DNA of 55,012 nucleotides from positions 1 to 55,012 of the forward strand of contig CAUJDF010000030.1 in assembly GCA_963169045.1 (NCBI GenBank), given 5' to 3'. The notes below the pieces were generated by a model. It made no database searches, was not told the DNA's origin, and saw only the letters and a program-made list of their open reading frames with translations. Positions 4,600-38,661 of this stretch are shown one piece after another. The stretch's first letter is position 1. Every line of letters starts with the position of its first letter. The position numbers and the translations under genes are program-made. This stretch comes from Myxococcota bacterium. Lineage in GTDB: Bacteria; Myxococcota_A; Bradymonadia; UBA7976; UBA1532.

Positions 4600-6071
<1,472 letters not shown>

Positions 6072-6075
<4 letters not shown>

Positions 6076-7190
6076 CCCGGCACACCGTCCTGGTCGTCGA
6101 CGACGAGCGCCAGACGGTCTCGGCGGTCAAGCACCTGCTGCGGCGTCGCTACCACGTCATCGGCGCCACCCGCGGCGACGAGGCCCTGGCCATGCTCGCC
6201 CAGGAGCCGGTCTCGGTCGTGCTGTGCGACCAGCGCATGCCGGGCATGACCGGCGACCGGTTCCTCGAGCAGGTGCGCAGCGCCTACCCCGACACGGTGC
6301 GCATCCTGATCACCGCCTACGCCGACCTGCAGGCGCTCATCCGCTCGGTGAACGGCGGCCAGATCTTCGCCTACGTCGCCAAGCCCTGGAGCCCGGAGGA
6401 GCTCGAGCGCACCGTCGACCAGGCGGCGGCCTATCGACAGCTGGTCGACGACAACCGGCGGATGACCGTCGAGCTGGCGGAGGCGAACCGGCGGCTGCAA
6501 CGCATGGTGGGCGAGCTGCGGCAGTTCTCGCATGTGGTGGCCCACGACCTGAAGGAGCCGCTGCGCACGATCGCGGCCTATGCGCAGTTCCTGCGGGACG
6601 ACCTCGGCGCCAGCTTCGAGCGGGCGGACGCCCGGTCCTACGCCGACGGCATCGCCCGCTGCGCCCGCAACCTGCGCGGGCTGATCGACGACCTGCTGCG
6701 CATCAGCGAGCTGGACCACCAGCCGACGACGGCATTCCCCGTCTCGCTCGACCTCGTCGTGCGGCGCGCGATCGAGCAGCTCGAGGGCGCGATCCGCGAG
6801 GCCGGCGCGGACGTCGCCATCGCCCCCGACCTGCCGACGGTGCGGGGAGACGCCCAGCGCCTGAGCCTCCTCTTCCAGAACCTCCTGTCGAACGCGATCA
6901 AGTTCAACGACCGGCCGCGGCCGCGGGTCGAGGTCTCGGCGCTGCCGCCGCTCGAGGCCGGCCGGGTGCGCGTCGCCGTCACCGACGACGGCATCGGCAT
7001 CCCCGCGGAGCAGCGGCAGGAGATCTTCAGGATCTTCCACAGGTTGCACACCAAGGACGACTACCCCGGCTCCGGCGCGGGCCTCGCCATCGTGCGCAAG
7101 ATCGCCGATAGCCACGGCGGATCTGTGGACGTCGAGGCCGCCGAGACGGGTGGCTCCCGCTTCGTGGTGACGCTGCCCGTCGCCACCTGA
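6072..7190 (+). CDS. Receiver-histidine kinase hybrid
   Basis: A soluble 372-residue protein with an N-terminal receiver domain (acidic pair D10-D11, phospho-acceptor D53 in LCDQRMPGMTG, T81, K104 in YVAKPW) and a C-terminal kinase: coiled coil 108-152, H158 in VVAHDLKEPL, then an HATPase with NAIKFN, DDGIGIP and GAGLAIV. It overlaps the preceding kinase by 4 nt. The order receiver-then-kinase suggests that the membrane kinase phosphorylates D53 and that this controls the second kinase, which must pass phosphate to a partner elsewhere. No DNA-binding output domain is encoded in the block, unlike ComA. Confidence 0.92.
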
Positions 7191-18031: not shown

Positions 18032-19705
18032 TCAGTCGGATGGCGGATGTTCGTCGATCCGCTCCTTGAGCATCTCGCGCAAGAGGCCGAGATGACCCAG
18101 GGTCGTCCGGGCGACCTTCATCTTCGACTGACCGAAGATCCGGCTTTGCAGCGTCGTGGGGTACTCGCGCACCACGCCGCCGGCCAGGTCGAGGCGGGCG
18201 AGCATCTCGAGCACGCCCAGGAAGTCGGTGTGCGTCTGGGGCAGGCGCACGAGGGCGCTGCGCCGGTAGACACGGAAGCAGGCGGTGTACGTGGCGAGCT
18301 TGTGGTGCAGGAACGTGTGGTAGATCCGCGAAAGTCCTCGGGAAAGGAACAGCCGCCACTGCGGCACGTTCATCACCAGGCCGTCGGGGTGGTAGGGGGA
18401 GGCGGTGACCATGTCGACCCCCTCCTCGAGCAGCGGGATCATCTTCAGCAGCTCGAGCGGGTCGTAGGAGCAGTCGGCGTCGATCGAACAGACGATCTCC
18501 GTGTCGGCGGCCTCGATGCCCGTACGCAGGCCCCCGGCGATGCCTCGGTTGCGCTCGTGACGCACGATGCGACACTCCGGCCGCTGTGCGAATCGCTTCG
18601 TCAGATCTGCATAGGTGGCATCGGTGCTGCAATCGTCGACGAAGACGTAGCGGAAGTCATAGCCGGCCGCGCGGCCGGCCTCGGAGAGCTCCGCCAGCGC
18701 CTTCTCGAGGTAGGGGAGGGCGTCGGTCTCGTTGTAACAAGGCACCACGATCGTGACGCCCGTGCCCGCCGCCTCCGGCCCGATCGGCGCCGGCGCACGC
18801 GAGGGGTGCCGGCCGCCGTCGGCGGCCACGACGGCCTCGGGGGCGCGCCGCTCGAGGGCGGCGCCGAGCCAGGCGGCGGCGGAGACGAACTCCGCCTCCT
18901 CGAAGTAGACCGGCAGCACCCAGGCCATCTTGTCGAGGTTGCGATACTGCCGGATGCGATTGAGCGGACCGACGGACGTGATGCGCGGCTGGGCGGGATC
19001 CAGCTCCCAGGGATGGAAGTAGAGCACGAAGGGTGCGTCGGTCTCGGCGATCCAGCGCTCGTAGCCTTCGCGCATCACCTTGTGCGGCAACTGGCGGAAG
19101 TAGTTCCCGCCCGAGATCGGCACGTTCATGCCGTAGAGGCGCGCGGTCGACATGGGGATCTCCCAGATCGACCCCTCGTGCGTCTCATGGCGACGCGCGG
19201 TGCGCAGGAACGCGTTGGGCGACAGATCGTGCAGCGGCGGGCAATAGCTCGCGTCGTACAGAAAGCCTTCCTCGGCGAGCACCTCGAGCGCCCAGAGATC
19301 CGACTTGCGGAAGCGTCCGTCGGGGCAGCGGAAGCCGACGATGCGGTGGCCGGCGGCGTTCTCGAGGGAGGCGCGGGCCCGCCGGACGTCCTCGCGAAAC
19401 TGCGCCGGCGTCATGTCGCGAACGTGTCGGTGGAAGTAGCCGCCGCACGCGATCTCGTGGCCGGCGTCGGCCACCTTGCGCACGACCTCGGGGCGCCGGT
19501 CGCCGAGCCAGCCGAGCGTGAAGAACGTCGCCTGGACGCCGTGCTGGGCGAGCAGGTCCAGCGTCTGATCGACGTTGTGCTCGATGCGCGGCTCGAACCG
19601 CTGCCACTGCTTCTCGCCGATCACGTTGCGGAACGCGCCGACGTGGAAGTAGTCCTCGAGCTGGACCGTGCAGATGTGGCGGCGGCGACCGCCCCCGGCG
19701 CTCAC
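18032..19705 (-). CDS. Polysaccharide deacetylase (DUF3473 type) fused to GT2 glycosyltransferase
   Basis: A 557-residue fusion. Residues 1-330 are a NodB-like deacetylase of the exosortase-system type: VQLEDYFHVGAF near the N-terminus, metal His pair in GYFHRHVRD, FRCPDGRFRK, the extra PISGGNYFRQLPH segment and the FYFHPWELD-like end (YFHPWELDP). After a linker, about residues 355-557 are a GT-A family 2 glycosyltransferase (TIVVPCYNETDALPYL, VDDCSTDAT, SIDADCSYDP), related to dolichol-phosphate-type transferases but without C-terminal TM helices. It would remove N-acetyl groups and transfer a sugar in the same polysaccharide pathway. GTG start overlaps the dehydrogenase stop. A frameshifted gene pair is unlikely because the frame is open throughout. 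Confidence 0.88.
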   Translation of the reverse strand: MSAGGGRRRHICTVQLEDYFHVGAFRNVIGEKQWQRFEPRIEHNVDQTLDLLAQHGVQATFFTLGWLGDRRPEVVRKVADAGHEIACGGYFHRHVRDMTPAQFREDVRRARASLENAAGHRIVGFRCPDGRFRKSDLWALEVLAEEGFLYDASYCPPLHDLSPNAFLRTARRHETHEGSIWEIPMSTARLYGMNVPISGGNYFRQLPHKVMREGYERWIAETDAPFVLYFHPWELDPAQPRITSVGPLNRIRQYRNLDKMAWVLPVYFEEAEFVSAAAWLGAALERRAPEAVVAADGGRHPSRAPAPIGPEAAGTGVTIVVPCYNETDALPYLEKALAELSEAGRAAGYDFRYVFVDDCSTDATYADLTKRFAQRPECRIVRHERNRGIAGGLRTGIEAADTEIVCSIDADCSYDPLELLKMIPLLEEGVDMVTASPYHPDGLVMNVPQWRLFLSRGLSRIYHTFLHHKLATYTACFRVYRRSALVRLPQTHTDFLGVLEMLARLDLAGGVVREYPTTLQSRIFGQSKMKVARTTLGHLGLLREMLKERIDEHPPSD

Positions 19706-21423
19706 GGCGCGCCGCCCGCCAGCGCCAGCCGGACGAGCTCCGGCACGAAGCCGCCGGCGACCGGCGGCGGCGCCGTCACCGCGCCCGGCGCGACGATGCG
19801 GCAGCCGGTGGCGCAGGTGTCGGCCAGCCGGCGGACCTCGTCGAGGTCGACGCGCTCGAACGTCGTCGCGGCGTAGTGCGCGTTGAGGTGGTCGACCACG
19901 CGGGCGAGCTCGTTGGCGACGCCGGTCTCGACGGCGCGGAAGCCGGCCACCACCGCGTCGACGAGCGACGGCGACGGGGCGGCGCGGCCGCGGCCGATGC
20001 CGGTGTAGCCGAGGCCCCCGAGCGAGCCGCGCTTCCAGGTGTTGCAGCCGTCGACCACGCCCACGGGGCGGCCCGCGAAGAGCTGCGCGCCGGCCTCGCG
20101 GTACGGCGCGTGCGGCTGGCAGACGAAGGCCAGCGCCGCGCCCTCGAGCGCCGAGTCGAGCGACTGCGTGTAGACCCGGTCGAGGCCGGTCTTCTTGAGG
20201 TTCTGGTCGTGGGGCCGCACGTAGGGATCGTGCAACGTCACGGTGCAGCCGCGCTCGAGCAGCCGCTGCGCCAGCGAGAGCGCCGGCGAGTTGCGCGTGT
20301 CGTCGGAGTCGAAACGATAGGCGACGCCCATCACCGCGACCTTCTTGCCCTTCACGTCGCCGAACGCGCGCTCCGCGAGGCCGATCGTGGCGTCCGGGGA
20401 GGCGTCGTTGATGCGCCGCGCCGCGTGGATGAGGCTCTGCGCCATCGTGCCGGGGACGTCGCGGTTGAGACGCCAGCGCAGCAGGATGCCATCCTTCGGC
20501 AGGCAGTGGCCGCCGACGCCCACGGTGGGCACGAGCAGGTCGCCGACCGGCACGGCGGCCGCGTCCTGGGAGGCGGTGTCGCTCGCGGTGAGGCGTGCGT
20601 TGACCGCGTCGCGCAGCGCGAAGAAGTCGACGTCGTGGTCGTCGCACCAGCGCACGACCTCGGCGGCGTAGGCGATGCGCACGTCGCGGTAGGCGTTCTC
20701 GAGCGTCTTGACCACTTCGGCGGTCAAGCTGTTGGTGGTGAACACCGTGCCTTCGGTCACGATGTGCTGGTAGATGTGCTTCACCAGCTCGGGCGTGACG
20801 GGGCTGAGGCCGCCGGCGAGCTTGTCGGCCTGGGCCACGCGCTCGATGAGGCGCCCCGGCATCACCCGGTTGGGGCTGTTGGCGAGCAGGACGTCGCGGC
20901 CCTCTTCGAGGCCGACGTCGCGGAAGTGGTCCCGCACGATCGTCGCCATCGACGACGGCGCCAGGGTCGACTCGATGACCACCAGCGGCACGTTGTCCGC
21001 GGGCTTGCGCGCCAGCGCCTTCGCCACCTGGGAGAGCGCCGAGTGCAGCGGCCCGTAGTCGGGGTCGAGGCCGTCCTTGTCGGTCTGGACGCAGACGAGC
21101 ACGACGTCGGCGTCGTACAGGTCGCCGAACTCGTCGGTGGCCGACAGGCGGCCGGCCTTCACGGTGCGGCCGATGAGGTCCTCGAGGCCCGGCTCGATGC
21201 CGCCGATGGGCGACCGGCCGTTGTTGATCGCGTCGACCTTCCAGCCCGAGGTCTCGGACCGGCGCTGCACGACATGCACCTTCGCGTCGCGCCCGAACGC
21301 GCCGCGCTCGCACGCGCCCGCCAGCAGGGCGGCCATGGGCATGCCCACGATGCCCGGCCCCACGACGGCGATCTTGCGGATGTCCCAACCCCGAACCCCG
21401 CCCGATTCCAGATTCAGCGGCAT
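19702..21423 (-). CDS. UDP-sugar dehydrogenase (nucleotide-sugar dehydrogenase)
   Basis: A 573-residue NAD-dependent sugar dehydrogenase, longer than the usual 430-450 because of a C-terminal extension (about 475-573). Rossmann motif VGPGIVG (21-27), ESTLAPSS, NSPNRVMPG, central-domain Asn/Lys region and the catalytic C307 in GVGGHCLPKDG. It should oxidise a UDP-hexose(-NAc) to a uronic acid; the exact sugar (glucose, GlcNAc or ManNAc) cannot be read from the sequence. The uronate fits the AsnB-type amidotransferase next door, which could amidate it. 15 nt downstream of asnB. Confidence 0.9.
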   Translation of the reverse strand: MPLNLESGGVRGWDIRKIAVVGPGIVGMPMAALLAGACERGAFGRDAKVHVVQRRSETSGWKVDAINNGRSPIGGIEPGLEDLIGRTVKAGRLSATDEFGDLYDADVVLVCVQTDKDGLDPDYGPLHSALSQVAKALARKPADNVPLVVIESTLAPSSMATIVRDHFRDVGLEEGRDVLLANSPNRVMPGRLIERVAQADKLAGGLSPVTPELVKHIYQHIVTEGTVFTTNSLTAEVVKTLENAYRDVRIAYAAEVVRWCDDHDVDFFALRDAVNARLTASDTASQDAAAVPVGDLLVPTVGVGGHCLPKDGILLRWRLNRDVPGTMAQSLIHAARRINDASPDATIGLAERAFGDVKGKKVAVMGVAYRFDSDDTRNSPALSLAQRLLERGCTVTLHDPYVRPHDQNLKKTGLDRVYTQSLDSALEGAALAFVCQPHAPYREAGAQLFAGRPVGVVDGCNTWKRGSLGGLGYTGIGRGRAAPSPSLVDAVVAGFRAVETGVANELARVVDHLNAHYAATTFERVDLDEVRRLADTCATGCRIVAPGAVTAPPPVAGGFVPELVRLALAGGAP

Positions 21424-21438
21424 CGTCGCCTCTCCCTG

Positions 21439-23376
21439 TCAGTTCACTTCCATGGGGCGAGCCTCGGTCGCGGCGCCCTTTTTCACCGCGGCCGCGTCGT
21501 CGAAGAACCGGTTGAACCACAGCTCGAGGGACAAGAGACCCCAGAGCTTGCGGCTGAACGGCTCCTCCTCGCCGAGCAGCCGGTCCACCATCGACGAGTC
21601 GAACAAACCCCGTTCGCGGCACCGGCGCGACATCAGCGTGTCGCGGAAGAACTGGTTCGAGCGCCCGCGCGCCCACTCGTGGAGCGGCACGGGGAAACCC
21701 ATCTTGTCCTTGCGGTCGATCACCCGCGCCGGCAGCACGTCCCGCGAGGCCTGCCGCAGCAGGTACTTCAACCGGCCGCCGCTGAACTTCAGGCGCGGCG
21801 GCAGGCGCCCCACCAGGTCGGCGATACGGCGATCGAGCAGCGGCACGCGCGACTCGAGCGAGACGGCCATGCTGACGCGGTCTTCCACGTGCAGCAGCGC
21901 CGGGAGCACCGCCGTCAGGTCGAAGCACAGCATCTTGTTGATGTAGGACAGCGTGTCCGGCTGTACGAACACGCTCTCGAAGCGCTGGTACACCTGGTCG
22001 GCGTCGTAGGTGGCGCGGAAGCCGGCGTCGAAGAGGGACAGCGAGTCCTCGCTGCGGTCGATCAACCGGAAATAGCGACGCTCCATCGAATCGAACAGCC
22101 CCCGACCCCAGAAGCGGCGCAGCATCGGCACGTACTGCTGGATCGAAGCCAGGTTCGGCACGATCGAGTGCAGTGAGACGATGTGCTCGCCCTCTTCGAA
22201 GGTGTCGAAGATGCCACCCTTGAGCGCCTGCTCGAGGTAGGCGACGAGATAGCGCGCGTAGCCGCCGAAGAGCTCGTCGCCACCCTGGCCGCCGAGGGCG
22301 ACCTTCACCTCCTGGGCGGCGCGCTTCGAGACCATGTACTGCGGGAAGAGACCCGGCCCCGCCAGCGGCTCGTCCATGTGCCACATCAGCGTGGGCAGCA
22401 CGTCGACGAAGTCGTCCTCGGTGGGGGTGATCGTCACGAGCCGGGCGCCCGCGGCCTCGGCGACGTCGATGGCGTAGCGCGACTCGTCGTAGGCCTCGCC
22501 CTCGTCGAAGCGGCCGTGGTAGGCGCTCAGGCCCTGGCAACGGCGCGCGGCCAGCGAGGTGACGAGGCTCGAGTCGAGGCCGCCGGAAAGGTGCGCGCCC
22601 ACCGGCACGTCGCTGCGGACCTGCAGGCGAATCGTGTCGTCGAGCAGCGCGCGGATCTCTTCGACGGCGCGCGCCTCGGTGTACGTGGGGTCGATGACGT
22701 ACGACGGGCGCCAGTAGCGATGCGTGTCCACGGTGCCGTCGAAGAGGTCGACGATCTGGAAGTGCGCGGGCATCACCTTGTGCACGCCCCGGAACAGCGT
22801 GCCTTCGTCCAGCGTGAACTGGAAGGTGACGTAGTCCTGCAGGCGCTGCTCGTCGAGCCGCGGCTCGATGTCCGGGTGGACCAGGAGCGCCTTGATCTCC
22901 GACGCATAGGCGATGAAGTCGCGTCCGATGTAGGTGTACAGCGGCTTGATGCCGAAGTGGTCGCGCGCGACGAAGGCGCGGCGGCGCGGCTTGTCCCAGA
23001 TGACGAACGCGAACATGCCGTTGAGGTGCTCGAGGCAGTGCTCGCCCCAGTGGCGGTACGCCTCGAGGAGCACCTCGGTGTCGCTGTTCGTCTTGAAGTT
23101 CGCGCCGCGCTTCACCAGCTCCTGGCGGAGCTCGACGTAGTTGTAGATCTCGCCGTTGAAGACGATCCACAGGTCCCCGCGGGCGTCGGACATCGGCTGG
23201 TGTCCGGCGGCGAGGTCGATGATGGAGAGACGGTGGTGGAACAGGCCCACGCCGTTCTCGATATGCACGCCCTTGTCGTCGGGACCACGGTGGGCCAGCG
23301 TGTCGCCCATCCGCTCGAGCAACGAGAGCGAGACGGGGCGGCCACGGCGGCCGAGCAGGGCGACGAACCCGCACAT
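21439..23376 (-). CDS. asnB: AsnB-type glutamine-dependent amidotransferase
   Basis: A 645-residue asparagine-synthase family protein: class II glutaminase with Cys2 as nucleophile (MCGFVAL), RHRGPD-type loop AHRGPDD, FNGEIYN; then the ATP-pyrophosphatase SGGLDSS and GGQGGDELFGGYARY. In polysaccharide clusters, including those linked to exosortase A, such enzymes are thought to amidate sugar carboxylates rather than make asparagine; the neighbouring sugar dehydrogenase supports that. The stop-start gaps on both sides are 4-15 nt. Confidence 0.93.
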   Translation of the reverse strand: MCGFVALLGRRGRPVSLSLLERMGDTLAHRGPDDKGVHIENGVGLFHHRLSIIDLAAGHQPMSDARGDLWIVFNGEIYNYVELRQELVKRGANFKTNSDTEVLLEAYRHWGEHCLEHLNGMFAFVIWDKPRRRAFVARDHFGIKPLYTYIGRDFIAYASEIKALLVHPDIEPRLDEQRLQDYVTFQFTLDEGTLFRGVHKVMPAHFQIVDLFDGTVDTHRYWRPSYVIDPTYTEARAVEEIRALLDDTIRLQVRSDVPVGAHLSGGLDSSLVTSLAARRCQGLSAYHGRFDEGEAYDESRYAIDVAEAAGARLVTITPTEDDFVDVLPTLMWHMDEPLAGPGLFPQYMVSKRAAQEVKVALGGQGGDELFGGYARYLVAYLEQALKGGIFDTFEEGEHIVSLHSIVPNLASIQQYVPMLRRFWGRGLFDSMERRYFRLIDRSEDSLSLFDAGFRATYDADQVYQRFESVFVQPDTLSYINKMLCFDLTAVLPALLHVEDRVSMAVSLESRVPLLDRRIADLVGRLPPRLKFSGGRLKYLLRQASRDVLPARVIDRKDKMGFPVPLHEWARGRSNQFFRDTLMSRRCRERGLFDSSMVDRLLGEEEPFSRKLWGLLSLELWFNRFFDDAAAVKKGAATEARPMEVN

Positions 23377-23380
23377 GGGC

Positions 23381-24361
23381 TTACCAGGCCTCCGACGCCG
23401 GGCGCACGGGCAGGTCGCGCCGCGTCGCCTGCGCCTCCGCGAACTTGGACATCGGGGTGAGCTCGAAGTGCGTCTTCAGCGCCTCGAGCACCCGCAGGAA
23501 GACCTCGCGCTTGCGCTGTCGGTCGAGGTCCATGCCGGGGAAGAAGCGCAGCGAGGGGGCCTGGTCGCCGCCGAGGACGTCGAGCGGGTGCAGAAGGAAG
23601 CTGACGGGCGTTCCGGTGGCGCGGCACGTCCGGGCCGCGCCCTCGAGGTAGGTGCGCATGGCCCCGTCGGAGTATCGGGCGAGGTACAGCAGGTAGCTCA
23701 GGTGGAACGGGGAGCGCACGCCGGGGATCGTCGTGACCGGCAGCTCGAGCAGGTGACCGCCGTCGAGCTGCCAGCGGTACGGCTTGTTGGGGCGCAGGCC
23801 GTCCTTGAAGCGGCCGAAGAGCATCGAGCGCTCGGCGCGCTGTTCGGGCGTGAGCTTCGCCGCCTTGAAGTAGTAGGCGCGCGCCAGCGGGCCGATGAAC
23901 GTGGGCAGCGTCGAGGCGTCGTAGCGGTAGCCCAGCTCGTGCAGCACGTGGAGCACGTCGCCGCTGAGGCTGAAGCCGGGACCGCGGAAGCCGACGGGCT
24001 TGTGGCCGGTGACGCGCTCGATGTGCCGCTCCGCCTCGCCGAGCTCGCGGCGCAGCTGCTCGCGGCTGTAACGGTGCAGCCACGGCTCGTGGTGGAACGA
24101 GTGGTTGCCGACCTCGTGGCCGCGGCGCACGAGCTCGCGGAGCGCGTCCGCATTCTTGTCGAGCGCGGCGTCCTGCCCGACCACGAAGAACGTGATCTTC
24201 AGCTGCAGCTCGTCGAGCAGGTCGCAGACGTAGGGCACGAACACGTCGAGGTACGAGGGGTGCTCGCTCCACGCCGGGCTGCCGTGGGTCTTCAGATAGG
24301 ACCACTCGTTGTCGACGTCGAGGGAGAGGCCGGCCAGCGGCCGACGCGGGCTTCGAGCCAT
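23381..24361 (-). CDS. Polysaccharide deacetylase (NodB homology)
   Basis: A 326-residue cytosolic or peripheral deacetylase. NodB motifs: LSLDVDNEWSYL, the metal-binding GNHSFHHEPW, GFRGPGFSLSGD and a C-terminal FLLHPLDVLGG. It is a second deacetylase in the operon, distinct from the fused one at 18032-19705 and lacking its DUF3473-type end. No signal peptide, so it may act on a lipid-linked intermediate. ATG start; 4 nt upstream of asnB. Confidence 0.9.
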   Translation of the reverse strand: MARSPRRPLAGLSLDVDNEWSYLKTHGSPAWSEHPSYLDVFVPYVCDLLDELQLKITFFVVGQDAALDKNADALRELVRRGHEVGNHSFHHEPWLHRYSREQLRRELGEAERHIERVTGHKPVGFRGPGFSLSGDVLHVLHELGYRYDASTLPTFIGPLARAYYFKAAKLTPEQRAERSMLFGRFKDGLRPNKPYRWQLDGGHLLELPVTTIPGVRSPFHLSYLLYLARYSDGAMRTYLEGAARTCRATGTPVSFLLHPLDVLGGDQAPSLRFFPGMDLDRQRKREVFLRVLEALKTHFELTPMSKFAEAQATRRDLPVRPASEAW

Positions 24362-32795: not shown

Positions 32796-32883
32796 AACCC
32801 GGGCCGGGGTCGGCGCGCACCCCGCGTTCATGGCGGGCGTCATCGTGGACGTCGGGTGGGGAGAAGTCCGGGGAGGGGGCGCG

Positions 32884-34083
32884 ATGGCCATCGAGATCCG
32901 CGAGGCCACGGACGACGAGACCCGAGAACGCATCTTCCGCTTTCGATACGGGATCCACGTCGTCGAGCTGGGCAAGGACGGCCCGGGGGTGGACCACGGG
33001 CGGCGCCTGCTGTTCGACGACGCCGACGCGCAGGCCACGATCTTCTTCGCCGAGGAGGAGGGCCGCATCGTCGGCACCGGCCGCCAGAACGGCGGGCGCA
33101 AGGGCGAGCTGCCACCGCTCTACCAGGAGTGGCTCGAGACCGCACCCGCCGAGGCCGAGTTCGGGCGCGAGCGGGTGAGCATCACCAGCCGGCTCATGGT
33201 CGATCCCGCCTACCGCGGGCGCACGCTGGCCTCGCTGCTCGTCATGCGCCTCTACGAGCACGCCTGCCGGAACGGTGTGGACGTCGACTTCATCTTCGCC
33301 GAGCCGGGCCTGCTCCGCCTGTACTACCGCCTCGGCTACCGCCAGTACCGGCCGGCCATCCGGCCGACCGGGCCCGGGATCCGCGTGCCGCTCGTCCACT
33401 GCGTCCGCGACCTCGGCCACCTGCGCCGGGTCGAGGCGCCGTTCGTGCGCCTGCTGCCGCCCTCGCTGGATGACGGCGGGCGCGTGGCGACGGCGATGGG
33501 CCGCCTCTACCCGGGCTTCACCGCGGCGGGACCGAGCCTCGAAGGCGACCTGCGCACCATCTGGGCGCGCCTGGCGGACGGCCTGTCGCGTCGTCAGCGC
33601 CGGCGCTCCCTGCTCGACGGCCTCACCGAGGCGCAGATCGAGCGCGTCATGGAGCGCGCGGCTCCCGTCTCGTTCGGCGTCGGCGAGGTCATCCGCCATC
33701 GACGCGAGAGCCGCCCCGACCTGGGCGTGGTGCTGTCCGGCCGCATCGGCGTGGGCCTGCCGACCCACGATGGTTGGCACTGGCTCGAGATTCTCGGGCC
33801 GGGCGACGTCTTCGGCGAGTGCGAGGCGCCGCCCGAGGACGGCCGGGCCACCGACCTCGTCGCGCTCGAGCCTTCGCAGACGGTCCTGCTCTCGGAGAAC
33901 CTCGTCGAGAAGACGGCGCGGCACGACCCGGAGCTCGCGCTGCGGTTGTCCACGAACCTCGTCGCCGCGCTCCGCCAGCGCGTGGACGACCTGCACCGGC
34001 GCGGCGCCGCGCTCGCCGCCCACGAGCGGATCCGCTTGATTCGCGAGCACACGATTCCGCCTCTCGAGGAGCTCGCCCAGTGA
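32884..34083 (+). CDS. GNAT acyltransferase fused to a cNMP-binding domain
   Basis: A 399-residue fusion. Residues 1-190 are a GNAT fold of the N-acyl-amino-acid or autoinducer-synthase-like type (FRFRYGIHVVELGK, VSITSRLMVDPAYRGRTLASLLVMRLYEHA, GLLRLYYRLGYRQY). Residues about 235-375 are a cyclic-nucleotide-binding domain (VGEVIRHRRESRPDLGVVLSG, ILGPGDVFGECEAP, VALEPSQTVLLSEN). The cNMP domain probably gates activity. ATG after GGGGAGGGGG. The stop overlaps the GTG of the heme-oxygenase-like gene, pointing to one pathway. Confidence 0.85.
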   Translation: MAIEIREATDDETRERIFRFRYGIHVVELGKDGPGVDHGRRLLFDDADAQATIFFAEEEGRIVGTGRQNGGRKGELPPLYQEWLETAPAEAEFGRERVSITSRLMVDPAYRGRTLASLLVMRLYEHACRNGVDVDFIFAEPGLLRLYYRLGYRQYRPAIRPTGPGIRVPLVHCVRDLGHLRRVEAPFVRLLPPSLDDGGRVATAMGRLYPGFTAAGPSLEGDLRTIWARLADGLSRRQRRRSLLDGLTEAQIERVMERAAPVSFGVGEVIRHRRESRPDLGVVLSGRIGVGLPTHDGWHWLEILGPGDVFGECEAPPEDGRATDLVALEPSQTVLLSENLVEKTARHDPELALRLSTNLVAALRQRVDDLHRRGAALAAHERIRLIREHTIPPLEELAQ

Positions 34084-34760
34084 GCGATCGACGTACGTTC
34101 CACGATGCCGTCGCGGAGGCCGTCTCGGCGTTTCCGCGCAACGCGCTGTGCCAGCGCATCGACGCGGGCACGGTGACGATCACCGACTATCACGGCCTGC
34201 TGCGGACGCTGTTCCATCAGACGTTCGAGGGGCCGAGCACCTTCGCCCTCGCCGGTTATCACTGCGATCCCCGGCACGTGGACGCGAAGGCGTACCTGAT
34301 GCACCACGCGGACGAGGAGAAGGAGCACTGGCGCTGGGTCATCAACGACCTGCGGGCGACCGGCGACGGCGGGCCCGATCCGCGCGAGACGTTCCCGGGG
34401 CCGGCGACGCAGTCGTACGTGGCCTTCAACGTCTACACCGCGGTGCGCGCGCCGGTGGCCCGGCTCGGGATCGCCGCCGTGCTCGAGGGCATCGGCGGGC
34501 GCTGGGGCGGCGAGTACGGCGGGCGACTGTGCGCGCGGCTCGGCCTGTCGCGCGCGCAGGCCAGCTTCTTCCTGAGCCACGGCGAGCTGGACAAGGGCCA
34601 CGTCGAGGACGTCTTTCGCGTGATCGACGCCACCGAGCTCGGCCCGCGCGACTGGGCGTGGCTGGCCCACGCGGCGCGCACGGCGGGCGTGCTCTACCGC
34701 GCCATGTACGACGCCGCCGCCGTCACGCCACCCGCCGCGGGCGCTCCCGCAGCAGGATGA
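34080..34760 (+). CDS. Heme-oxygenase-like diiron-type oxidoreductase
   Basis: A 226-residue all-helical protein of the iron-containing redox enzyme / heme-oxygenase-like group. Candidate metal ligands are in MHHADEEKEHW (H75, H76, E79, E80, H83) and LSHGELDKGHVEDV. Such proteins oxidise or cleave amino-acid or fatty-acid derivatives; with an N-acyltransferase directly upstream (4-nt overlap) it may modify the acyl product. Substrate not known. Its 3' end overlaps the convergent Ser/Thr kinase gene by 38 nt. Confidence 0.85.
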   Translation: MSDRRTFHDAVAEAVSAFPRNALCQRIDAGTVTITDYHGLLRTLFHQTFEGPSTFALAGYHCDPRHVDAKAYLMHHADEEKEHWRWVINDLRATGDGGPDPRETFPGPATQSYVAFNVYTAVRAPVARLGIAAVLEGIGGRWGGEYGGRLCARLGLSRAQASFFLSHGELDKGHVEDVFRVIDATELGPRDWAWLAHAARTAGVLYRAMYDAAAVTPPAAGAPAAG

Positions 34761-36225
34761 CCTCGCCGGTCTGCAGCGCCTTGCGCAGCGCCCGCATGTC
34801 GGCGAAGCGCTTCTCGGGGCTCTTCTCGAGGCACTTCATCACGATGGCGTCGAGGAACTCCGGCACGTCGGTCGCGAGCTCCGAGGGCCGGCGCGGCGTC
34901 TCGCGCAGGTGCCGCATGAGGATCGCCATCGACGAGTCGCCGTCGAACAGCAGCTGCCCCGTCAAGAGGTGGTACATCACCGCGCCGAGCGCGTAGACGT
35001 CGCTGCGCGGATCTCCGCGTTCGCCCTTGGCGCGCTCGGGCGGCATGTACTCCGGCGTGCCGATCACGCGCTCCTTGCGCGTGGCGTCGCCGGGCACGGC
35101 GAGCGCCGCCGCGAGGCCGAAGTCGAGCACCTTCAGCTGCTCCTCGCCCGCCTCGTCGACGGTCACGAACAGGTTCTCAGGCTTGATGTCGCGGTGCACG
35201 ACGCCCTGGTCGTGGGCCTCCACGAGCGCCGAGGCGGCCTGGCGCATGAGGGAGACGACGCGGGTCGGGCTCATGCGGCCCTCGGCGGCGATGATCGAGC
35301 TGAGGTCGCGGCCCTTGAGGTGCTCCATCACGTAGTAGAGCCGCTGGTCGCGCGTGCAGCCGTAGTCGTACACGCGCACGGTGTGCGGGCTCGTGAGGCG
35401 GCACGTGGCCTTCGCCTCGAGCTCGAAGCGGGCGATGTACTCCTCCTGGGCGCCGAAGCGCCGGTCGAGCATCTTGATGGCGCACGTGCGCTCGAGCAGC
35501 TCGTCGCGCGCCAGCCAGACCTCGCCGAATCCGCCGGCGCCGATCGGTCGGTCGAGGGTGTAGCGCCCGCGGCTGCGCGCTTCGATCTCCTGACGGCGCA
35601 GGCGGTGCACGAGGCCCGCGCCCATCACCGCGATGAGCCCGTTGGCGAGCACGAAGAACTGCAAGTTGGCGAAGCGGGCCCAGTAGAAGGGGTCGTGCTG
35701 CTGTCCGACCGTCATCGTCCAGGCCATCGAGGCCCCCAGCGTGCCGAGCCAGCATGCCGCCGAGCCGAGCGCGGCCAGCTTCCAGCCGCTCGGCACGTAC
35801 AGACAGCGCAGGAAGGCGATCGTCGCCACGCTCCCGAAGTAGAGCGGGTTGTCGCCGTGGGTGAGGCCGTCGAGGCAGCCGCAGAGCACGCCGACCAGGA
35901 GCATGCCGAGCATGTCGAGGGCGCGCGCGAGGCCCACCGCGCTCTTGGCGCGACGCACGGCGAGACCGCAGACCACCAGCAGCGCCGAGAACGCCACGCG
36001 TACCGCGAGGATGAGCAGCAGCGGCAGGTCCTGCTGGCCGCTCATCTCGCGCGTCAGCTCACCGAAGATGAAGCCGGGGAGGGCGAAGGCGCCGACCAGC
36101 AGCTGGTTGGCGACGCCGCGCTGGTACTCGGTCTCGAGCTCGCGGGCGACGCGGCGGTCGACGTCGTCCGTGAGGCCTACGACCGCGTCGGAAGGCGCGG
36201 GCGTGCCGGTGGGATGGAGCGCCAT
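34723..36225 (-). CDS. Membrane Ser/Thr protein kinase with N-terminal TM bundle
   Basis: A 500-residue eukaryotic-like kinase. Five or six TM segments (about 42-62, 68-90, 105-118, 128-145, 150-172, 185-206) precede a complete kinase domain (223-485): Gly loop GAGGFGEVW, K251, HRDIKPEN (D346), DFG (368-370) and APE-like PPE in GTPEYMPPERAKG. Most bacterial kinases of this family put the kinase domain first and TM after, so the order is inverted here. Start is the ATG at 36225; a TATGGT box lies eight bases upstream and may give leaderless translation. Confidence 0.93.
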   Translation of the reverse strand: MALHPTGTPAPSDAVVGLTDDVDRRVARELETEYQRGVANQLLVGAFALPGFIFGELTREMSGQQDLPLLLILAVRVAFSALLVVCGLAVRRAKSAVGLARALDMLGMLLVGVLCGCLDGLTHGDNPLYFGSVATIAFLRCLYVPSGWKLAALGSAACWLGTLGASMAWTMTVGQQHDPFYWARFANLQFFVLANGLIAVMGAGLVHRLRRQEIEARSRGRYTLDRPIGAGGFGEVWLARDELLERTCAIKMLDRRFGAQEEYIARFELEAKATCRLTSPHTVRVYDYGCTRDQRLYYVMEHLKGRDLSSIIAAEGRMSPTRVVSLMRQAASALVEAHDQGVVHRDIKPENLFVTVDEAGEEQLKVLDFGLAAALAVPGDATRKERVIGTPEYMPPERAKGERGDPRSDVYALGAVMYHLLTGQLLFDGDSSMAILMRHLRETPRRPSELATDVPEFLDAIVMKCLEKSPEKRFADMRALRKALQTGEVILLRERPRRVA

Positions 36226-36370
36226 GTGCCGGGACCATAACCCGAAATCGACCCGGCGGTCTTTCTTGTCTCCGTCGGGTGACGGCGCCTGGGGCGCCGC
36301 GTCACGCCGCCCCCGCGCTCGTGACGCGCTTCGCCACGGCGCCGGCGCGGCAGGTCCCGAAAGTCCGTGT

Positions 36371-36386
36371 GGCACGCCGCTTGTAA
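36371..36386 (+). promoter_or_regulatory. Sigma-54-type promoter
   Basis: TGGCACG-CCGC-TTGTA fits the -24/-12 consensus TGGCACG-N4-TTGCW with a single mismatch (GT instead of GC at -12). Transcription would start near 36397 and the small gene at 36436 begins about 40 bases later with a GGGGGACGAG site. Confidence 0.5.
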
Positions 36387-36435
36387 CTGTCTCGTCCCCA
36401 GTGACCGAGACGCACCGTGACGGGGGACGAGCGAC

Positions 36436-36654
36436 ATGACGCGCATTCGGACGACGCTGTGGGATCTGGCGGACGCGATCGTGGAGGAGGCGGAGCGCGT
36501 GGCCGAGGGAGACGAGGCGATGGCGCTGGCGAACGCGGCGCTCACCGACTTCCTGATGCATGCGCGCCTCGTCCGTGAGGAGCCGCGGCGGCCGGTCGAG
36601 GACGCCTATCGCCGCCGCGCCCGCCGCACGCTTCGCCTCGCGGTCGGTCTCTGA
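36436..36654 (+). CDS. Small helical protein of unknown function
   Basis: A 72-residue charged helical protein (acidic first half WDLADAIVEEAERVAEGDEA, basic Arg-rich second half). No homology recognised. It has a good ribosome site and the sigma-54-like promoter at 36371-36386, which is the main evidence that it is a real gene. Its end is 7 nt from the convergent receiver-like gene. Confidence 0.6.
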   Translation: MTRIRTTLWDLADAIVEEAERVAEGDEAMALANAALTDFLMHARLVREEPRRPVEDAYRRRARRTLRLAVGL

Positions 36655-37839: not shown

Positions 37840-38661
37840 ATGGACGACCTCGCGCCCTTCGCCGCGTTCCTGCGCGCCGCGCGCAGGCTGGTGGTGCTCG
37901 GCGGCGCCGGCTGCAGCACCGAGTCCGGCATCCCGGACTATCGCGGCCGGGATGGCGTCTGGCGCGGGCACAAGCCCGTGCAGTACCTCGACTTCGTGCG
38001 CCGGCCCGAGGTGCGGGCGCGGTACTGGTCGCGGAGCATGGCGGGCTGGCCGATCCTCCGGGCCGCCCGGCCGAGCGATGCGCACCGGGCGCTGGCGGCG
38101 CTCGAACGGACGGGGCGGCTGCACGCCCTCATCACCCAGAACGTCGACCGCCTGCACCACGCGGCCGGCAGCCGGCGCGTGATCGAGCTGCACGGCGCGC
38201 TGCACGAGGTGGTCTGCCTCGGCTGCGGCCTGCTCACCACGCGCGACGACGTGCAGGCGCGCCTCGAGGCGCTGAACCCCGGGGCCGCGACGCGCCCGGC
38301 CACGCTGGCGCCCGACGGGGACGCCGCGGTCGAGGCCGACCTCTCCGCCTTCCGCGTGCCGTCGTGCGCCGCCTGCGGGGGCGTGTTGAAACCGCGGGTC
38401 GTCTTCTTCGGCGAGAACGTGCCCCGGCCCACGGTGGAGGCCGCCTTCGGCGCCGTGGCCGAGGCCGACGCCCTGCTCGTCGTGGGCTCTTCGCTGACCG
38501 TGTACTCGGGCTTCCGCTTCGCCCGGGCGGCGCGCGAGCGGGGCCTCCCGCTGGCCATCGTCAACCTGGGGCCCACGCGCGCCGACGACCTGGCCGACGT
38601 GCGCGTCGACGCGCCGGCGGGCGAGGTCCTCTCCGCGGTGGTGGCCGATGGGTCGGCGTGA
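37840..38661 (+). CDS. Sir2-family NAD-dependent protein deacylase
   Basis: A 273-residue sirtuin: GAGCSTESGIPDYRG (NAD loop), TQNVDRLHH, catalytic His in IELHGALHEVVC, four zinc Cys (VCLGCG and SCAACGG) and VVGSSLTVYSGF. The layout resembles class II (SIRT4-like) sirtuins. It would remove acyl groups from lysines. It overlaps the Rsm22-like gene by 14 nt. Confidence 0.95.
   Translation: MDDLAPFAAFLRAARRLVVLGGAGCSTESGIPDYRGRDGVWRGHKPVQYLDFVRRPEVRARYWSRSMAGWPILRAARPSDAHRALAALERTGRLHALITQNVDRLHHAAGSRRVIELHGALHEVVCLGCGLLTTRDDVQARLEALNPGAATRPATLAPDGDAAVEADLSAFRVPSCAACGGVLKPRVVFFGENVPRPTVEAAFGAVAEADALLVVGSSLTVYSGFRFARAARERGLPLAIVNLGPTRADDLADVRVDAPAGEVLSAVVADGSA

Follow-up and report, generated by a model that had tools for sequence, protein, structure and literature searches.

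A GNAT acyltransferase gene with a cyclic-nucleotide-binding domain and an adjoining heme-oxygenase-like oxidase gene in Myxococcota: candidate core of a three-enzyme lipid pathway

The joining of a GNAT acyltransferase and a cyclic-nucleotide-binding (cNMP) domain is known from PatA (KATmt), the mycobacterial cAMP-gated lysine acetyltransferase, in which the cNMP domain is N-terminal and a Pat-type GNAT domain C-terminal. FeeM-type N-acyl amino acid synthases, the ornithine N-acyltransferase OlsB and the AHL synthases of the LuxI type (BjaI, LasI) are further acyltransferases with which the locus described here was compared. Its second gene belongs to the heme-oxygenase-like dimetal oxidases (HDOs), of which about a dozen have been validated out of more than 10,000 and for most of which a ligand set of three histidines and three carboxylates (3H/3C) has been described (PMC13108848). 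In the HDO MboA, iron is bound by Glu86 and His89 of the motif DEFGH and the C-terminal residue of a peptide is the oxidation target, and in MboA, AetD, UndA, HrmI and PolF iron is bound by the carboxylate of the substrate (PMC13185094).

In the present study two overlapping genes of a Myxococcota bacterium, ORF1 and ORF2, were analyzed (Table 1). The window, i.e. the whole stretch of DNA under analysis with 55,012 nucleotides, is part of a 9.0 Mb assembly in 109 contigs. An earlier note on this DNA had described a GNAT-cNMP gene overlapping a heme-oxygenase-like gene by 4 nt, which was confirmed by the ORF coordinates and Pfam; the shared nucleotides are GTGA, and translation of ORF2 is probably coupled to that of ORF1 by this overlap. 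GC content at third codon positions amounts to 0.94 in ORF1 and 0.92 in ORF2, compared with 0.48-0.53 at position two. Downstream, the 3' ends of ORF2 and of a convergent kinase gene overlap by 38 nt (34723-34760). As judged from orthologues in four further genomes, which keep the same order, ORF1 and ORF2 are genuine genes.

Table 1. Coordinates of the two genes, their predicted domains and ligands, and the neighbouring gene in the window.
Feature	Position	Strand	Details
Putative ribosome-binding site of ORF1	32870..32879	+	ggggaggggg; purine-rich; sequence inspection
ORF1	32884..34083	+	399 aa; start ATG 32884; LuxI/FeeM/OlsB-type GNAT N-acyltransferase with C-terminal cyclic-nucleotide-binding domain (predicted)
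GNAT domain of ORF1, ~residues 1-210	32884..33513	+	Pfam GNAT models; N-terminal F-R-Y-x-V-H/Y-x-x-E-L-G ... D-H motif
Cyclic-nucleotide-binding domain of ORF1, residues 262-343	33667..33912	+	PF00027, 8.2e-8
Phosphate-binding cassette FGE-8aa-RATD of ORF1, residues 310-324	33811..33855	+	with Glu312 and Arg321; alignment of f1 orthologues
Putative ribosome-binding site of ORF2	34066..34071	+	GAGGAG; purine-rich; sequence inspection
ORF2	34080..34760	+	226 aa; start GTG 34080; heme-oxygenase-like dimetal oxidase (predicted)
Predicted HDO ligands Glu80, His83 (ExxH)	34317..34328	+	aligned with DEFGH of MboA
Predicted HDO ligand Glu136	34485..34487	+	invariant in 14 diverse members
Predicted HDO ligands His167, Asp171, His174 (HxxxDxxH)	34578..34601	+	conserved in alignment
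Ser/Thr protein kinase gene (boundary)	34723..36561	-	convergent; occupies the place of the methyltransferase gene in four relatives

Co-occurrence in relatives had been set beforehand as the test of this pairing. In the GTDB family of this genome, f1, the HDO gene was found in five of 13 genomes and the GNAT-cNMP gene in the identical five, both being absent from the other eight, and in 5/5 pair-bearing genomes the two genes are adjacent. Under independence such identical sets would arise with a chance of 1 in 1287, a value that treats related genomes as independent draws, which they are not, so that the five cases do not amount to five independent events. Orthologues in the four other f1 genomes are 53-65% identical to ORF1 and 60-71% to ORF2 with gene order kept, and more distant adjacent pairs were detected in two other Myxococcota families (HDO then GNAT-cNMP in G260, GNAT then HDO in G178). 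At the scale of the phylum (284 genomes) HDO was present in 18 genomes and GNAT in 29, and the trees do not discriminate between one and several origins of the pairing. These comparative data support GNAT-cNMP and HDO as a real, co-evolving unit. A full-length paralogue of ORF1 was not present in its own genome, and plasmid and phage searches yielded no relatives of it on such elements. The pair of G178, a genome in a single contig of 10.33 Mb, is a minimal one (L083, 8376-8960 and 7618-8343, both on the minus strand); its GNAT has 194 aa and no cNMP domain, and a fatty-acid-hydroxylase gene lies nearby at 4965-6569.

The GNAT domain of ORF1 belongs by sequence with the FeeM, OlsB and exosortase-associated long-chain N-acyltransferases. 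GNAT models of Pfam cover residues 20-157, the FeeM model (PF21926) reaches 26.8 bits, 0.2 bits under its cut-off of 27, and the Pfam model Autoind_synth (PF00765) gave no match for ORF1. One of its relatives scores 55.7 bits with FeeM, and among 22 GNAT-cNMP proteins of Myxococcota the cNMP_binding model matched all 22 and FeeM 15 (E below 0.001). The OlsB model (NCBIfam) matched 16 of 19 GNAT domains and the exosort_acyl model 15 of the 19; with 24.2 bits against an equivalog cut-off of 350 bits ORF1 is a relative of OlsB and not a member, and it likewise scores far below the exosort_acyl cut-off. When the GNAT profile was compared with solved structures, the AHL synthase BjaI (5w8c) was the best PDB match, and other GNATs were found too. 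The structure of ORF1 predicted by AlphaFold from a five-sequence alignment has a mean pLDDT of 45.5 and is poor beyond ~residue 130, its usable region being the N-terminal GNAT part alone; a fold search with this confident part of a low-confidence model gave BjaI, LasI, MesI and TofI among the GNAT matches. Resemblance to N-acyl amino acid synthases, previously proposed "by fold pattern only", was found at the level of sequence profiles too (FeeM, OlsB and exosort_acyl models).

Members of the GNAT-cNMP family have the N-terminal motif FRYxVYxEE..DH in common, and ORF1 shares with FeeM-type synthases the GNAT fold of the LuxI branch and the motif R-Y-x-V-Y/H-x-x-E, whereas it differs from them by the additional C-terminal cNMP domain and the linked HDO and methyltransferase. 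In contrast to ORF1, the AHL synthases BjaI and LasI are shorter and have no cNMP domain, and unlike in the OlsB system no OlsA-type O-acyltransferase was seen beside ORF1. Sequence evidence supports the placement of ORF1 among the long-chain N-acyltransferases of the LuxI/FeeM/OlsB branch, long-chain acyl groups being presumed substrates.

ORF2 was matched by the Pfam model Haem_oxygenas_2 (PF14518, 3.8e-9; iron-containing redox enzyme). Profile matches to the HDOs MboA (9e-12), CADD (3e-6), UndA (5e-5) and AetD extend up to 0.05, and SznF was also found. Its AF2 model (pLDDT 75.8) is all helical, with 3dde and CADD as top Foldseek matches. Like MboA, UndA, CADD and AetD, ORF2 combines the heme-oxygenase fold with the 3H/3C ligand set, whereas it differs from them in its genomic partner and in a low identity of 14-21% in fold alignments. 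All six predicted metal ligands are complete and conserved across the HDO family, which points to an HDO with a dimetal site; binding of two metals and activation of O2 are predicted. The label "diiron-type", given to the oxidase before, is a deduction from the full set of three histidines and three carboxylates. ORF2 may act on an N-acyl amino acid whose carboxylate is free, which would be chemically similar to the carboxylate-anchored substrates of other HDOs and to the peptide oxidized by MboA.

A third gene belongs to this set. Directly 3' of HDO, mostly with short overlaps of a few nt, the four other f1 genomes (L004, L005, L097, L098) encode a membrane protein of ~200 aa, which matches models of PEMT and ICMT methyltransferases, the phospholipid methyltransferase PEMT being the best Pfam match, and which has a GPY..RHPFY..EE.KF-like core invariant among orthologues. 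This methyltransferase gene is absent from the window, where the convergent Ser/Thr kinase gene takes its place; an orthologue with 54-58% identity was found unlinked on another contig of the same genome (G000:C91). Its neighbours there, a ferredoxin gene and three small genes, are found around the undivided operon of G038 and G068, which indicates that GNAT and HDO parted from the methyltransferase as a unit. Clear methyltransferase orthologues (E below 1e-49) were restricted to the five pair-bearing genomes within the family, and in a 189-genome sample of the phylum to pair-bearing genomes as well. Since the methyltransferase tracks the GNAT-HDO pair in this manner, its distribution argues that GNAT-cNMP, HDO and methyltransferase are a set of three enzymes, not two.

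We consider it moderately probable that ORF1 and ORF2 form the core of a small lipid pathway with three enzymes and cNMP gating, which yields an N-acyl amino acid or aminolipid in modified form. In the first step the GNAT of ORF1 would take a long-chain acyl group from a donor that is probably acyl-ACP and attach it to an amino acid or a similar compound at the amine, and the C-terminal cNMP domain would turn this acylation on or off by cAMP or cGMP. ORF2 would then act on this product as an oxidase, the simplest options being desaturation, hydroxylation or oxidative cleavage beside the iron-anchored carboxylate, and the PEMT/ICMT-like membrane methyltransferase would methylate the head group, carboxyl or amine. 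If it caps the carboxylate, it would have to act after HDO; if it N-methylates the amine, either order would be conceivable. The product might serve as a signal or as a membrane component. This model is based on gene structure, co-occurrence, catalytic and ligand motifs and the phyletic match of the third gene, and for the acyl and amine substrates, step order, reaction type, and cNMP binding together with its sign we infer what these features suggest. Counting against the model are the scores of ORF1 under the FeeM, OlsB and exosort_acyl cut-offs, the divergent cassette of its cNMP domain, the kinship of the five f1 genomes, the many FeeM-cNMP loci without HDO, the lack of a neighbouring cyclase gene in the window and the poor predicted structure of ORF1. 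Of the controlled two-step synthesis of an acyl-amide assumed in the earlier note, the pairing as a real unit has been retained, as has the acyltransferase, now placed in the FeeM/OlsB/exosortase-associated group, whereas two steps have become three with the methyltransferase tracking the pair; the "lipid signal" considered there is one option, which a modified membrane aminolipid fits equally well.

That the product is such a membrane aminolipid and not a signal is possible, if on the unlikely side. ORF1 would then be OlsB-like, HDO would hydroxylate or desaturate its product, the methyltransferase would N-methylate the head group and the cNMP domain would tune membrane composition. The frequent matches of the OlsB model and the preference of the third gene's protein for PEMT agree with this, and hydroxylation and methylation of aminolipids are known (PMC11631085). 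However, an O-acyltransferase, which performs the usual second step in aminolipid synthesis (PMC11631085), was seen neither beside the pair nor in the operons of relatives, and the FeeM and exosort_acyl models match about as often as OlsB. Confidence in the three-enzyme pathway and in its rivals overlaps and is not meant to sum to one, as signal and membrane roles both fit the data.

The gate assumed for the three-enzyme pathway was considered separately. In known cNMP domains such as those of CRP and PKA, the Glu and Arg of the phosphate-binding cassette contact ribose and phosphate, respectively. Their counterparts Glu312 and Arg321 are invariant across the f1 orthologues of ORF1. The f1 cassette FGExxxPPxxGRA is non-canonical (usual form FGE[IL]AL), and the Glu or Arg has been lost from some relatives, so that cNMP binding may be altered or lost. 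In three relatives (L068, L070, L078) the gene order is methyltransferase, FeeM-cNMP and class III adenylate/guanylate cyclase with GAF domains, a domain content that rests on Pfam matches of the L068 cyclase. No adenylate cyclase gene lies beside the pair in the window; in the genome as a whole at least six cyclase loci are present. Given the conserved cassette and the adenylate cyclases adjoining relatives, control by cyclic nucleotides is likely for the GNAT-cNMP family and plausible for ORF1, and it is to this extent that the description "cNMP-gated" stands, with cAMP or cGMP as the presumed ligand. An ungated synthase, whose cNMP domain is merely a structural or dimerization remnant, seems unlikely to us: the divergent f1 cassette, the loss of Glu or Arg from several relatives and the GNAT partner in G178, too short for a cNMP domain, would all suit it, whereas the invariance of Glu312 and Arg321 across f1 and the cyclase genes next to three relatives speak against it.

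It is quite improbable that ORF1 and ORF2 share an operon and serve separate processes, with HDO acting for example in thiamine or heme metabolism. HDO without GNAT and GNAT without HDO both occur in many Myxococcota, which such a separation would explain, and most FeeM-cNMP loci are without HDO, which is therefore not obligatory for the synthase. Against separate processes stand the perfect co-occurrence and adjacency in f1 with two further adjacent pairs, the fact that the pair stayed joined when it parted from the methyltransferase, and the retention of all six metal ligands of HDO, which are dispensable for metal-free proteins of the TenA type. The reading of ORF1 as a PatA-like (KATmt) enzyme that acylates or acetylates proteins under cNMP control, HDO being an unrelated neighbour, could invoke the union of GNAT and cNMP domain in a single chain there too and a gene for a Sir2-type NAD-dependent deacetylase at 37840-38661, ~3 kb beyond the pair. 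It was rejected as highly improbable, because the domain order is the reverse of that known for PatA and the GNAT branch is a different one, matching N-acyl-lipid families and not protein acetyltransferase models, because the linkage to HDO and methyltransferases would be left unexplained, and with no paper in the open-access literature searched joining the terms.

Relatives of ORF1 show further arrangements. FeeM, cNMP and class I methyltransferase domains are combined in one polypeptide in L065 (8584-10593), L066 (2336-4420), L067 (5745-7760) and L068 (15214-17196), and the genome G200 carries four synthase genes or fusions of this kind; judging from these loci, methylation is a recurring theme in the FeeM-cNMP family, achieved by fusion or by adjacency to class I methyltransferases. 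In L079 (5011-9084) a FeeM-cNMP gene apparently shares an operon with genes for an AMP-binding ligase and an NAD_binding_4 protein resembling fatty-acyl reductases, which appears to be another tailoring variant of this synthase family.

The closest HDO relative outside the GNAT-paired group that was found with an annotated operon accompanies a thermostable hemolysin (PF12261). The order hemolysin, AMP-binding ligase, HDO, SDR and TPR/hypothetical protein is conserved in Vibrio, Citrobacter, Pantoea, Pseudoalteromonas, Alteromonas, Variovorax and one Myxococcota genome (L059, L060, L061, L062, L063, L121, L122 (plasmids); L088, 3011-7739), and the "thermostable hemolysin" of this operon may be a biosynthetic enzyme; in the open-access literature searched, no paper was found to treat thermostable hemolysin together with HDO. 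In contrast to ORF2, this HDO lies in a separate supported clade, next to another first gene and no cNMP domain, and the PF12261 gene, the AMP ligase and the SDR are absent at ORF1/ORF2. The possibility that T_hemolysin is an unrecognized GNAT, by which the GNAT-HDO link would extend across Proteobacteria, was dismissed with an hhalign probability of 0.1 and no solved GNAT matched. A link to an exosortase system was dismissed too, as the operons of relatives show none and the single exosortase of the own genome is encoded on another contig. About 10 kb away from the pair, the window contains XrtA/PEP-CTERM-like polysaccharide genes (18032-24361, minus strand), among them a deacetylase that carries a glycosyltransferase-like region at its C-terminus (TIGR03006, 270.6 bits against a cut-off of 276.2), a nucleotide-sugar dehydrogenase and an XrtA-like amidotransferase.

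Each part of the ORF1/ORF2 system belongs to a known kind of enzyme. In the open-access literature searched, a scope that leaves aside most subscription journals, we found no description of the FeeM-cNMP fusion, of its relatives linked to cyclases and methyltransferases or of the branch with HDO, and no paper that mentions "N-acyl amino acid synthase" together with "cyclic nucleotide". As most HDOs are orphan enzymes, it is of particular interest that the pair points to a likely substrate class, and a system of two or three small genes is tractable in E. coli. We propose tentatively, as a possibility that may well turn out otherwise, that Myxococcota hold undescribed second-messenger-gated lipid-signal synthases, which would be of the FeeM type, allosterically controlled by cAMP or cGMP, served by dedicated cyclases in some operons, tailored by methyltransferases and, in the present lineage, joined by an HDO with new chemistry on N-acyl amino acids. 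If this is true, an intracellular cyclic nucleotide signal would be converted directly into a diffusible lipid signal.
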